Below, piece by piece: positions 2,945-39,958 of a stretch of DNA of 39,958 bases. Under the pieces are notes generated by a model that saw nothing but the letters and a program-made list of their open reading frames with translations, made no database searches and had not been told where the DNA came from. Within the stretch, counting starts at the first letter, position 1, and every line of letters starts with the position of its first letter. The position numbers and the translations under genes are program-made. Origin of the DNA: Candidatus Planktophila sp. (GTDB lineage: Bacteria > Actinomycetota > Actinomycetes > Nanopelagicales > Nanopelagicaceae); NCBI GenBank assembly GCA_021741905.1, contig JAIOWZ010000010.1, positions 1 through 39,958 on the forward strand. The letters run 5' to 3'.

Positions 2945-4979
2945 TTGCAGCCTTCTTGCGACGAGTTGGTTTTTTTGGTTCTTCAACTACTACAACAATG
3001 CGTTCTGGAACCTCCACTGGTGGTTGCTCAGATGGAATGCGAGTAGCAGAACCAGTCCATGCTGGGCGCTTTGTAACTAGCTTTACCTTTTTAAAGATTG
3101 CCGCGATTTCATCCTTATTCAACGTTTCCTTTTCAAGAAGTTCAATCACCATTTCGTCAAGGATCTTTCGGTTTGCAACCAAAATATCGAAAGCTTCTTG
3201 ATGTGCATTCTCAATGAGTCGTCGAATTTCGCGGTCTACAACTCCTGCGATATTTTCGCTGTAATCACGTTGATGTCCATAATCGCGACCCAAGAATGGC
3301 TCAGATGCTCCGCCGCCCAATTTGATAGCACCTATAGCTTCTGTCATTCCATATTGAGTAACCATGGCACGAGCAAGCTCTGTGGCTTTTTCAATGTCAT
3401 TAGAGGCACCTGTCGATGGATCATGGAAAATCAATTCTTCAGCGGCGCGTCCACCTAATGAATACGCCAACTGATCAAGTAATTGATTGCGAGTTGTTGA
3501 GTACTTATCTTCATCAGGAAGGACCATTGTGTAACCAAGTGCCCGGCCACGAGGCATGATTGTTACCTTGTGGACTGGATCTGTATGAGGCATTGCATGT
3601 GCAACAAGAGCGTGACCTGCTTCGTGATAAGCAGTGACTCGACGTTCATCATCACTCATTAAACGAGATTTACGTTGCGGTCCAGCCATAACGCGATCAA
3701 TCGCTTCATCTAGCTCTGGATTTCCGATAGCAGCTTTGTTTTCACGGGCAGACAAAAGCGCCGCTTCATTAAGAACATTGGCAAGATCGGCGCCTGTAAA
3801 ACCAGGTGTGCGACGTGCGTAATTAACTAGCTTTACCTCATCGCTTAGTGGCTTGCCCTTGGCGTGTACCTGCAAGATCGCTTCGCGACCCTTGAGATCT
3901 GGGCGATCAACTGCGATTTGTCGATCAAAGCGACCTGGACGAAGCAAGGCAGGATCTAAAACATCTGGACGGTTTGTTGCAGCGATCAAAATGACCTGTG
4001 AGTTTTCTTCAAAGCCATCCATTTCAACTAATAATTGATTAAGTGTTTGTTCACGTTCATCGTGGCCACCACCCATTCCCGCACCGCGCTGGCGACCGAC
4101 AGCATCAATTTCGTCGATGAAAACTATTGCAGGAGCATTTGCCTTAGCTTGATTAAACAAATCACGCACACGAGCTGCACCAACACCAACAAACATTTCA
4201 ACAAAGTCAGAGCCTGAAATGGAATAGAAAGGGACTCCAGCTTCACCAGCCACTGCGCGAGCTAGAAGTGTCTTACCTGTTCCTGGAGGGCCAAACAACA
4301 AAACACCCTTAGGGATCTTTGCGCCAAGTGGTGCGTACTTTTCTGGCTTTGCAAGGAAGTCTTTTATTTCATCTAATTCGGCAAGTGCCTCATCTGCTCC
4401 TGCAACATCTTTAAAAGTTGTCTTTGGTACATCGTTGTCTTGCAATTTCGCTTTAGATTTTCCAAATTGGAAAACTTTGTTTCCGCCTTGGGTTTGGCTC
4501 ATAAACCAGAAAAACAAAAGTCCAATAAGCAGAAATGGAACGATGGAGAAGAGGAATGAAACCAAGAGTGATTGCGACGGAACCTTTACGTTCCAACCCT
4601 TTGAAGGTGGGTTAGCCGTCAATGCATCAATCAAGGTGGGCTCTTGGCGCGCAACATAGAATGCCTCAACCTTTGAATCGCCCTTAATTGTGTTACCAGG
4701 AGTAAGGATTAGGCGAATCTTTTGATCTCTATCAACTAGTTCGGCTGATAAGACTTTTGATTGAGTAATCGCATCAATTGCCTGTGACGTTTCGATTTGC
4801 GTGTATTTATTGCCCGCAGATGAGATCTGACCAAAAACCGTGACAGCAAAGATTGCAGCAACAATCCAAAATAAAGGACCGCGAAAGATTTTTCCGCCAG
4901 TGGTGGTAGGTTTTTTTGGCGTGCTCTTGCCAGAAAAACTCTTCTTTGCTTGCTTCTTAGGCTTTTGTGCTTGTGACAT
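2931..4979 (-). CDS. ftsH: ATP-dependent membrane zinc protease FtsH
   Basis: Membrane-anchored hexameric AAA+ protease that removes misassembled membrane proteins and some regulators. Of 682 residues, a basic N-terminus is followed by a membrane helix at about 33-53, a periplasmic-type domain, a second helix at about 138-160, and the AAA domain with Walker A GPPGTGKT (230-237), Walker B VFIDEID (286-292) and the second region of homology with arginine fingers (NRPDVLDP...RPGRFDR, 337-353). The zinc-protease HEAGH is at 452-456. The C-terminal tail is basic and proline-rich ([10 protein letters not shown]), as in other actinobacteria. It sits between hpt and folE, the common actinobacterial order. 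Confidence 0.98.
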
Positions 4980-37388: not shown

Positions 37389-38423
37389 TTATTTAAGTGA
37401 TGAAGTACCGGTTGAGCGCAAATCTTCACAACCACGAACAACGCGAGCAGCCATGCCTGCTTCTGCAGCCTTGCCCCATGCGCGTGGATCATAAGCCTTC
37501 TTGTTTCCAACTTCGCCATCAATCTTTAGCACGCCATCGTAGTTCTTAAGCATGTGCTCAACAACTGGACGAGTAAATGCATACTGAGTATCTGTATCGA
37601 TATTCATCTTGATTACACCGTAGTCAAGTGATTCGCGGATCTCTGAAAGTAGTGAGCCAGAGCCACCATGGAAGACCAAGTCCATTGGCTTGCTTCCAGC
37701 AGGCAAACCAAGCTTTACAGAAACTGCTTCTTGCAAAGTTGCAAGGATCTTTGGCTGCAACACAACGTTTCCTGGCTTGTATACGCCGTGAACATTTCCG
37801 AATGTTGCTGCCACCATGTAGCGAGCATTCACATCTGTTCCAAGGGTTTCAACTGTCATTAATGCATCTTCAGGTGTTGAGTAAAGCTTTGCATCATGCT
37901 TTGCTTCGATGCCATCTTCTTCTCCGCCAACAACACCAATTTCAATTTCAAGAATAGTTCTTGCAGCAACAGACATCGCTAGCATTTCCTTAGCGATCTT
38001 CATGTTTTCATTCATGTCAACAGCTGATCCATCCCACATGTGTGAGGTAAACAATGGTGCTTTGCCTGACTTAACACGGTCTGCGCCAATTACAAGTAGT
38101 GGACGAAGGAATCCATCTAGCTTTTCTACTGGGCAGTGATCTGTATTGATACCAATATTTACTTTGTAATTCTTTGCGACAACATGTGCAAACTCTGCGA
38201 GCGCAACTGCGCCGTCAACCATGTTCTTAACTGTTGAGCCAGATGCGTATTCAGCACCGCCCCATGAAAATTGGATGATTCCATCTGACTCTGCTTCGGC
38301 GAAACCACGAATGGCAGCTGTGATGGTCTGTGATGATGAAACATTGATTGCTGGGTAAGCGAATGCGCCCTTTTTAGCGCGATCTAACATGTCGGCAAAT
38401 ATTTCAGGGGTTGCAATTGGCAT
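37389..38423 (-). CDS. fbaA: Class II fructose-bisphosphate aldolase
   Basis: Zinc-dependent aldolase that splits fructose 1,6-bisphosphate in glycolysis and works in reverse in gluconeogenesis. The 344-residue protein has INTDHCPVEKLDGF with the zinc ligand His96, EIEIGVVGGEEDG, FGNVHGVYKPGNV and VFHGGSGS with further His ligands, and NIDTDTQYAFTRPV. The length fits class IIA. An AGGAG site is 6 bases before the ATG. The upstream 100 bases hold the leader, but I could not settle on a promoter there. Confidence 0.96.
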   Translation of the reverse strand: MPIATPEIFADMLDRAKKGAFAYPAINVSSSQTITAAIRGFAEAESDGIIQFSWGGAEYASGSTVKNMVDGAVALAEFAHVVAKNYKVNIGINTDHCPVEKLDGFLRPLLVIGADRVKSGKAPLFTSHMWDGSAVDMNENMKIAKEMLAMSVAARTILEIEIGVVGGEEDGIEAKHDAKLYSTPEDALMTVETLGTDVNARYMVAATFGNVHGVYKPGNVVLQPKILATLQEAVSVKLGLPAGSKPMDLVFHGGSGSLLSEIRESLDYGVIKMNIDTDTQYAFTRPVVEHMLKNYDGVLKIDGEVGNKKAYDPRAWGKAAEAGMAARVVRGCEDLRSTGTSSLK

Positions 38424-38522
38424 TCTGACTCCTAAGAACTCGTTGTAATTCTTTAGACTGAGCGCTTCATTGAGTCGTCTAGAGGCTTACGGCCAATCCT
38501 CTCACCTTCGCCCACATGGCAC

Positions 38523-38560
38523 AAAAAGACCCTCCGCAGGGGGTTAGCGGAGGGTCTTTT
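38523..38560. terminator. Perfect 14-bp hairpin terminator
   Basis: Arms 38524-38537 (AAAAGACCCTCCGC) and 38547-38560 with a nine-base loop. On the minus strand the arm runs into TTTTT, six bases after the stop of the 34-codon gene. It insulates the fbaA-purine operon from upstream transcription; A/T flanks on both sides make it bidirectional. Confidence 0.93.
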
Positions 38561-38566
38561 CCCTTA

Positions 38567-38671
38567 TCAGCTCAGTGTTTTGAGTGCGTTTGCCAGGAAT
38601 CTAGCCAAGGCGGCAACCAGGACTGGGCTACTGAGTAGTTTGATCAGCATCAATATGAAGGATGTAAGCAT
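38567..38671 (-). CDS. 34-residue hydrophobic, cationic peptide, unrecognised
   Basis: A very short gene that I read directly. The ATG at 38671 is preceded by AAAGGAG five bases upstream (38677-38683), one of the best ribosome-binding sites in the window. The frame of 34 codons ends with tandem TGA TAA, and a perfect terminator begins six bases later. The peptide starts [15 protein letters not shown] and continues [19 protein letters not shown]: one likely membrane or amphipathic helix pair around Pro16, with three basic residues and no acidic ones. It lies between divergent acs and fbaA. I know no named family; membrane-active peptide, type I toxin-like peptide or small regulator are all open possibilities. 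Confidence 0.72.
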
Positions 38672-38775
38672 TATTTCTCCTTTCTTTGGGGGCATCTTCA
38701 AGCCTTATGGACCCTCAAAAATCAATTACCGCTTTGGCTGTTGATAACAATGCTCAAGAGGTAACCTCTATCGTT
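38672..38775. other. Divergent region between the small peptide gene and acs
   Basis: About 100 bases. On the minus side it holds the AAAGGAG site of the peptide gene. On the plus side a TAACCT box (38762-38767) is eight bases from the acs ATG. I see no clear -35 box or operator. An upstream in-frame ATG for acs at 38707 also falls here. Confidence 0.4.
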
Positions 38776-39958
38776 ATGAGCCAAGAAAACGAATCCCTGG
38801 AAAACCTGCTCAGCGAGGATCGCTTGTTTCCTCCAACTTCAGAGTTTGCAGCACAGGCAAATGCAAAACCTGAACTGTATGACCAAGCCGAAAAAGATCG
38901 TTTGGGATTCTGGGATGTCCAAGCAAAACATCTGTCATGGAACACGCCGTGGAGTAAAACTCTTGAATGGGATTCACCGTTTGCCAAATGGTTTGTGGGC
39001 GGAAAGATCAACGCATCTGTAAATGCATTGGATCGTCACGTGCTTGAAGGTCGAGGAGAGCGCGTTGCATTTCATTTTGAAGGTGAACCTGGCGATACTC
39101 GAACAATTACTTATGCGCAGCTACTAACCGAAGTTAAGAAAACTGCAAATGCGTTAATTGAACTAGGCGTAGTTGCCGGCGATCGAGTTGCAATTTACAT
39201 GCCAATGATTCCTGAAGCTGCGATTGCAATGCTTGCGTGTGCTCGAATTGGCGCTCCCCATTCAGTTGTCTTTGGTGGATTTTCTGCAGAGGCGCTACTG
39301 TCTCGAATTCAAGATGCAGATGCAAAAATAGTTATCACTGCAGATGGTGGATTTAGAAAAGGCGCAGCCTTTGCCTTAAAGCCCGCAGTCGATGAAGCGC
39401 TCAAAGGTAAGCACAACGTTGAAAAAGTTTTAGTTGTTCAACGCACCAAGCAGGAGACTGCTTGGAATTCGGCAACTGATGTGTGGTGGCATGAGATTGT
39501 TAGTCGTCAATCAGCAGATCACACTGCAGAGTTCTTTGATTCTGAGCATCCACTATTTATTTTGTACACATCAGGCACAACGGCTAAGCCAAAGGGGATT
39601 TTTCACACAACTGGTGGCTATTTAACCCAGGCTGCTTATACCCACCGTGTTGTCTTTGATATTAAGCCGGAAACAGATGTTTATTGGTGCACTGCAGATG
39701 TGGGCTGGATTACCGGACATAGCTACATTGTGTATGGGCCACTGATGAATGGTGCAACACAGGTTATGTATGAAGGAACCCCCGATACGCCTCATAAGGG
39801 TCGGATATTTGAATTAATCGAAAAGTATGGCGTAACTATTTTGTATACCGCACCTACATTGATTCGCACCTGGATGAAGTGGGGCGATGAGTTCCCTAAT
39901 AAGTTCAACTTAAAGTCACTTCGCTTATTGGGATCAGTTGGAGAGCCAATTAATCCTG
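38776..39958 (+). CDS. acs: Acetyl-CoA synthetase, 5' part, cut by window edge
   Basis: Activates acetate to acetyl-CoA through acetyl-AMP. The first 394 or so codons of about 650 are present. The start chosen is the ATG at 38776 ([16 protein letters not shown]), because relatives begin here; an in-frame ATG at 38707 would add 23 residues. Landmarks are [47 protein letters not shown], the AMP-binding loop [13 protein letters not shown] and [16 protein letters not shown], which together identify Acs rather than a general acyl-CoA ligase. It would let the cell use free acetate. Confidence 0.95.

Follow-up and report, generated by a model that had tools for sequence, protein, structure and literature searches.

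The locus between acs and fbaA

The DNA analysed here, called the window, is a stretch of 39,958 nucleotides of Candidatus Planktophila sp. (contig JAIOWZ010000010.1), taken from a genome assembly of 1.25 Mb that is 88% complete. Near its end lie two genes, fbaA and acs, which point away from each other. Between them there is a small gene of 34 codons, directed towards fbaA and away from acs (Table 1). The frame is preceded by a well-spaced ribosome-binding site, closed by two stop codons in tandem and followed by an intrinsic terminator, whose hairpin begins six bases past the TGA and was also recovered by folding. A preliminary description of this DNA had proposed a hidden gene with exactly these elements, encoding a peptide with three basic residues and no acidic one. 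The elements are all found as described, and the product contains K11, R24 and K31 and no Asp or Glu. The same description spoke of a complete transcription unit. The ribosome-binding site and the terminator are indeed conserved, but a sigma-70 scan gave no match to a promoter for the small gene, and a motif search for such a promoter mainly recovered the -35 region of acs instead.

Table 1. Features of the acs-fbaA region of the window.
Feature	Position	Strand	Remarks
34-residue peptide, coding sequence	38570..38671	(-)	ATG 38671-38669; 34 codons, ends 38570; conserved in 120 loci
Tandem stops of the small gene	TGA 38569-38567, TAA 38566-38564	(-)	read in the sequence
Ribosome-binding site GAAAGGAG	38677..38684	(-)	5 bases 5' of the ATG; SD-like motif in 109/120 loci
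Intrinsic terminator	38523..38560	(-)	perfect 14-bp stem AAAAGACCCTCCGC / GCGGAGGGTCTTTT plus T-run
fbaA, class II fructose-bisphosphate aldolase	37389..38423	(-)	PF01116; downstream neighbour of the small gene in 117/117 loci where neighbours are readable
acs, divergent neighbour	38776..39958	(+)	start codon 38776; truncated by the window end; divergent, on the opposite strand, in 119/119 loci where it could be sought
Predicted acs promoter	38741..38767	(+)	TTGATA 38741-38746, TAACCT 38762-38767, 8 nt before the ATG

A hairpin with a T-run is located 3' of the small gene in 74 of 120 loci, compared with 4 in shuffled sequence. The stems differ widely in sequence from one locus to another, which indicates that the terminator is maintained while its letters turn over. 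The terminator of the window is bordered by an A-run and, at its other end, by a T-run, and might stop transcription in both directions. If this is true, it would keep antisense transcription that arrives from the direction of fbaA out of the small gene.

Conservation of the small gene

Does such a short frame encode a protein? Gene finders usually overlook genes this tiny, and the answer has to come from comparison. Within the window's own genus (g1, 135 congeneric genomes), a tblastn search gave matches in 30 relatives, none of them with internal stops. A profile search of 296 genomes of the family Nanopelagicaceae found a clear homologue with an intact frame in 113 of the 135 g1 genomes and strong homologues in 18 of the 21 genomes of genus g35; in G300 the match is weak, but its genomic position confirms it. 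The 120 loci that were extracted contain 112 distinct coding sequences and 101 distinct peptides, with lengths of 32-37 residues. Loss of the frame, the ATG or the ribosome-binding site in relatives had been named in the preliminary description as the sign of a spurious gene; the frame is kept in the 120 loci, the ATG in every one of them and the SD motif in 109.

The pattern of substitution is that of a protein-coding sequence. In 51 non-overlapping and independent sister pairs there are 521 synonymous differences at 1297 sites and 279 non-synonymous differences at 3770 sites, giving a dN/dS of 0.136. The differences follow codon phase, with 210, 88 and 502 at codon positions 1, 2 and 3, respectively. 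The conserved frame, the synonymous excess, the start codon and the ribosome-binding site all speak for translation, and the small gene is almost certainly a genuine protein-coding gene. A chance open reading frame has nothing in its favour except its short length and is contradicted by conservation, codon phase, start codon, SD and synteny; with a dN/dS of 0.14 across 51 pairs it can be regarded as refuted.

Judged from the comparison of loci, the gene is long retained at one fixed chromosomal position and inherited vertically. An identical peptide is encoded in the MAG isolate RE-20apr16-158. Planktophila-type loci are also present in public MAG records titled Bifidobacterium breve, Streptomyces griseus and Streptomycetaceae (L219, L228, L231, L222, L235), and the organism names of these records therefore look wrong.

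The small gene has been lost in a few congeneric genomes that keep fbaA, namely G014 (complete), G028, G203 and G216. In these genomes acs is present as well wherever the contig permits a check, and in G014 and G216 the gap between acs and fbaA contracts to about 137 bp. Among the single-contig g1 genomes, the gene is found in 12 and missing in one (G014). Several other genomes that gave no match have neither fbaA nor acs in the assembly and are uninformative on loss. Clean losses in a few lineages mean that the gene can be dispensed with; from its distribution, it is useful yet dispensable.

Control regions of the neighbouring genes

The sequence upstream of acs has the layout TTGATA, 15 nt, TAACCT, 8 nt, ATG (38741-38778, plus strand). 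Of 119 loci, 117 have a TANNNT motif 6-9 nt upstream of the acs start codon, whereas its frequency at random positions is 5.6%. This constant spacing suggests that the acs mRNA is probably leaderless, in which case the longer upstream frames of acs (TTG 38686 and ATG 38707) are probably not used. Only a short gap separates the acs -35 region from the SD of the small gene; this speaks against the small gene having a long structured leader. When the frame is divided into four blocks, synonymous change is about the same in each (0.28-0.31), and it drops only over the first few codons. There is thus no hint of an RNA element that overlaps the frame.

A further block, GGATTnGCCGTAAGCCTC ... CCCAATG ... 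TTTACAC, lies 5' of fbaA (38482-38499, minus strand, and on to fbaA) and is conserved across genera; its CGTAAGC is present in 114 of the 120 loci. The block has one exact occurrence in the window's genome and no convincing RNA structure, and is probably the control region of fbaA.

The encoded peptide

The 101 distinct peptides share a small set of constrained positions. Lys11 is invariant in all of them. A polar residue occupies positions 15 (N/S/T) and 28 (K/N/S/R) in 99% of the peptides and position 31 in 92%. Position 16 is proline in 82 peptides, forming a Ser/Asn-Pro hinge at 15-16, and basic or polar residues are found at 24, 28 and 31 across the family. Positions 2, 5, 6, 8-10, 12, 13, 18, 19, 22, 23, 25, 26, 30 and 33 are nearly always hydrophobic. 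Acidic residues are absent from 97 of the 101 peptides, and neither cysteine nor tryptophan occurs in any.

How are these positions arranged in space? In each half of the peptide, the tolerance of polar residues is periodic at 101 degrees per residue (p 0.018 and 0.005 when columns are shuffled), and the hydrophobic moments of the two halves are 0.47 and 0.45 (shuffle p about 0.01). AlphaFold predicts helices at residues 2-13 and 16-33, with a mean pLDDT of 86 for the peptide alone and 89 with 24 sequences; the pTM is low at 0.42, and the model is silent on partners. The best 19-residue octanol sum (-9.1) falls in the N-terminal stretch, and this hydrophobicity makes a transmembrane position possible. 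No cleavable signal sequence is apparent by inspection. The peptide is thus predicted to consist of two short amphipathic helices, and it looks suited to lying on or within the cell membrane. The suggestion of a membrane-active peptide in the preliminary description fits this predicted pattern.

Relatives in databases

No convincing family match was obtained in Pfam, NCBIfam, PHROGs or PADLOC. Pfam gave no hit for 26 family members, and weak matches such as DUF5326 (E 0.012) were rejected as being at chance level. There was no match in the PDB and no relevant one in Rfam, and no homologues were found in viral contigs, phages or plasmids. The TisB family model (PF13939) matched nothing in the window's genome with E <= 10; the control for this search was weak, since the E. 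coli match itself appeared only below the cut-off. Class-wide profile searches detected no member outside the Nanopelagicaceae among 395 genomes drawn from the class. The peptides form a genuine small-protein family that is unlabelled in the libraries searched and, as far as searched, restricted to the Nanopelagicaceae. The GMSC catalogue contains small proteins predicted from 63,410 metagenomes, and just 6.1% of its small-protein families have a conserved-domain assignment; members of the present family may already stand there as anonymous entries (PMC11364881).

The same position in other genera

In other genera of the Nanopelagicaceae, the slot divergent from acs holds short frames preceded by an SD motif, selected here by position and SD and not by E-value. 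Their products are hydrophobic, amphipathic and mostly cationic, with some (g31) having a net charge of 0. They are 36 residues long in g39, 34 in g40 and 39-54 in g27, g31, g32, g36 and g38. A separate type of 48-52 residues with an SNxG motif, typically HSNFGLLGLDRLL, occupies the slot in g25, g26 and g34. No slot frame was recognised in g28, g29, g30, g33 and g37.

Are these peptides related to the one in the window? The main profile scores them above their shuffled versions in g39 (p 0.0005) and g32 (p 0.0025) and weakly so in g36 (p 0.016, one of two sequences), while those of g27, g31 and g38 are aligned to the window type by eye only. The window peptide reaches p 0.001 against a profile built from the distant slot peptides. 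Purifying selection also acts on the 48-52-residue type (pN/pS 0.09-0.45). Profile comparison and shuffle tests show no detectable homology between this type and the 34-residue type, and the two are therefore not treated as one family.

The gene on the far side of the slot also varies. In g27, g31 and g32 the slot is followed by purA and not by fbaA, so acs is the more lasting neighbour. The preliminary description also suggested a small regulator of a neighbour; for fbaA this possibility is weakened, since the slot holds small genes where fbaA does not follow. Several g27, g31, g32 and g36 genomes (L087 (G125), L090 (G127), L091 (G090) and L093 (G306)) gave no class II fbaA, and in G306 a frame near acs resembles a class I aldolase by eye; loss or replacement of the aldolase may have taken place in these genomes. 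In part of g34 (L089, G155), a gene for an acetate transporter of the GPR1/FUN34/YaaH type (PF01184) lies between acs and the small gene. The spacing between acs and fbaA in L187, L188 and L197 is similar to that in L089.

It is possible, if doubtful, that the slot next to acs is a conserved membrane-peptide locus of the Nanopelagicaceae. It would hold a short amphipathic peptide in many genera, of the 34-residue helix-hinge-helix type in g1, g35, g39 and g40 and of the 48-52-residue type in g25, g26 and g34, and at least once this peptide would have been replaced, or have changed so far that it can no longer be recognised. In that case, what selection maintains would be a biophysical function at the membrane that is connected with the use of acetate.

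Possible functions

What does the peptide do? We favour, with a probability of about one half, a lineage-specific small protein that is associated with the membrane and acts in its own cell. The lack of a signal sequence and of an adjacent export gene suggests that the peptide would remain within the producing cell. There it would bind to the anionic inner membrane, its narrow polar face turned outward, and would alter a property of this membrane or of a membrane complex. The small gene and acs might be switched together, for example during acetate scavenging under carbon limitation; co-control is suggested by a single feature, the lasting divergent arrangement of the two genes. Both the membrane effect and the co-regulation with acs are put forward as hypotheses.

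Precedents for such a protein can be found outside the toxins. The E. coli protein YohP (27 aa), which is not part of a toxin-antitoxin setting, lowers the membrane potential and quiets metabolism on starvation without killing the cell (PMC12719787). Likened by description, YohP is also a very short hydrophobic protein encoded at a conserved position on the chromosome (PMC12719787), but it is a single transmembrane segment, whereas the Planktophila peptide has two predicted amphipathic helices with a hinge. A role in starvation like that of YohP would be in keeping with a peptide connected to acetate scavenging. Membrane-surface peptides of the SpoVM type are again similar by description, being very short, amphipathic and passed on vertically in one place. 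Their role is tied to sporulation, a process not known from these bacteria.

The closest functional resemblance, by analogy, is to TisB, a type I toxin of 29 aa from E. coli. TisB, too, is short, hydrophobic, amphipathic and cysteine-free. Its central lysine is essential and its C-terminal part has basic residues; K12 and at least one of K26 and K29 are required (PMC11449926). The counterparts in the Planktophila peptide would be the invariant K11 and the mostly basic or polar positions 28 and 31. By contrast, two aspartates occur in TisB, which is predicted to form a single transmembrane helix and has the istR-1 antitoxin and an enterobacterial range.

In membrane type I systems, an antisense RNA antitoxin pairs with the toxin mRNA, and overexpression of the toxin halts growth or depolarises the membrane. 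The Planktophila peptide might be a pore-forming, self-acting toxin of the TisB kind that is made under stress, enters the inner membrane and reduces the proton motive force so that the cell becomes dormant, with an antisense RNA restraining it. Membrane type I toxins have fewer than 60 residues, are hydrophobic and helical and are usually cationic toward the C-terminus (PMC8309996); the peptide shares this anatomy, including the C-terminal basic residues, and has the invariant central lysine in addition. However, nothing points to an antisense RNA, given the even synonymous change, the lack of an Rfam family and the little room for a long structured leader, and the TisB family is not matched. 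The single-copy locus is fixed and has no homologue on mobile elements, unlike many toxin loci, and membrane type I toxins have been described in Proteobacteria and Firmicutes only (PMC8309996). A toxin of this type is possible but unlikely. The likeness noted in the preliminary description is no more than a likeness: no evidence of an antitoxin was found, and since the TisB model is not matched either, the gene is not filed as a type I toxin.

Small accessory subunits of about 34 residues occur in bacteria, and the peptide could be one that belongs to a protein complex in the membrane, perhaps a transporter or one of the respiratory complexes, with its gene lying apart from those of its partners. 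Strong purifying selection and specific invariant residues (K11 and the S/N-P hinge) would agree with this. Rapid change between genera, including the unrelated-looking 48-52-residue type, and clean losses in a few species would be unusual for a core subunit, and we regard this explanation as improbable to a similar degree as the toxin.

The remaining explanations fare worse. A secreted amphipathic peptide directed at other cells, of the leaderless-bacteriocin or surfactant type, would also be cationic and amphipathic without acidic residues; it is quite improbable, since no export or immunity gene adjoins the small gene, whose neighbours are acs, fbaA and purA throughout, and inheritance is vertical and in a single place. 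The small gene is co-directional with fbaA, with the terminator between them, and might encode a leader peptide that controls read-through into fbaA by attenuation. This is very improbable because selection acts on the amino acids, a regulatory codon run is absent, small genes persist where purA and not fbaA follows, and fbaA has its own conserved upstream block.

Significance

The acI Actinobacteria, to which 'Ca. Planktophila' belongs, rank with the most abundant bacteria of fresh water, and their genomes are strongly reduced; this makes a long-kept gene of this kind informative. No protein-family library searched names the family, and the case illustrates that a gene of 34 codons can be established through comparative data alone. 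If a membrane role of the favoured kind is true, these streamlined cells would possess a membrane-acting peptide linked to acetate metabolism. If the reading of the slot as a conserved locus is true as well, a membrane function tied to acetate use would be present in very abundant freshwater bacteria.
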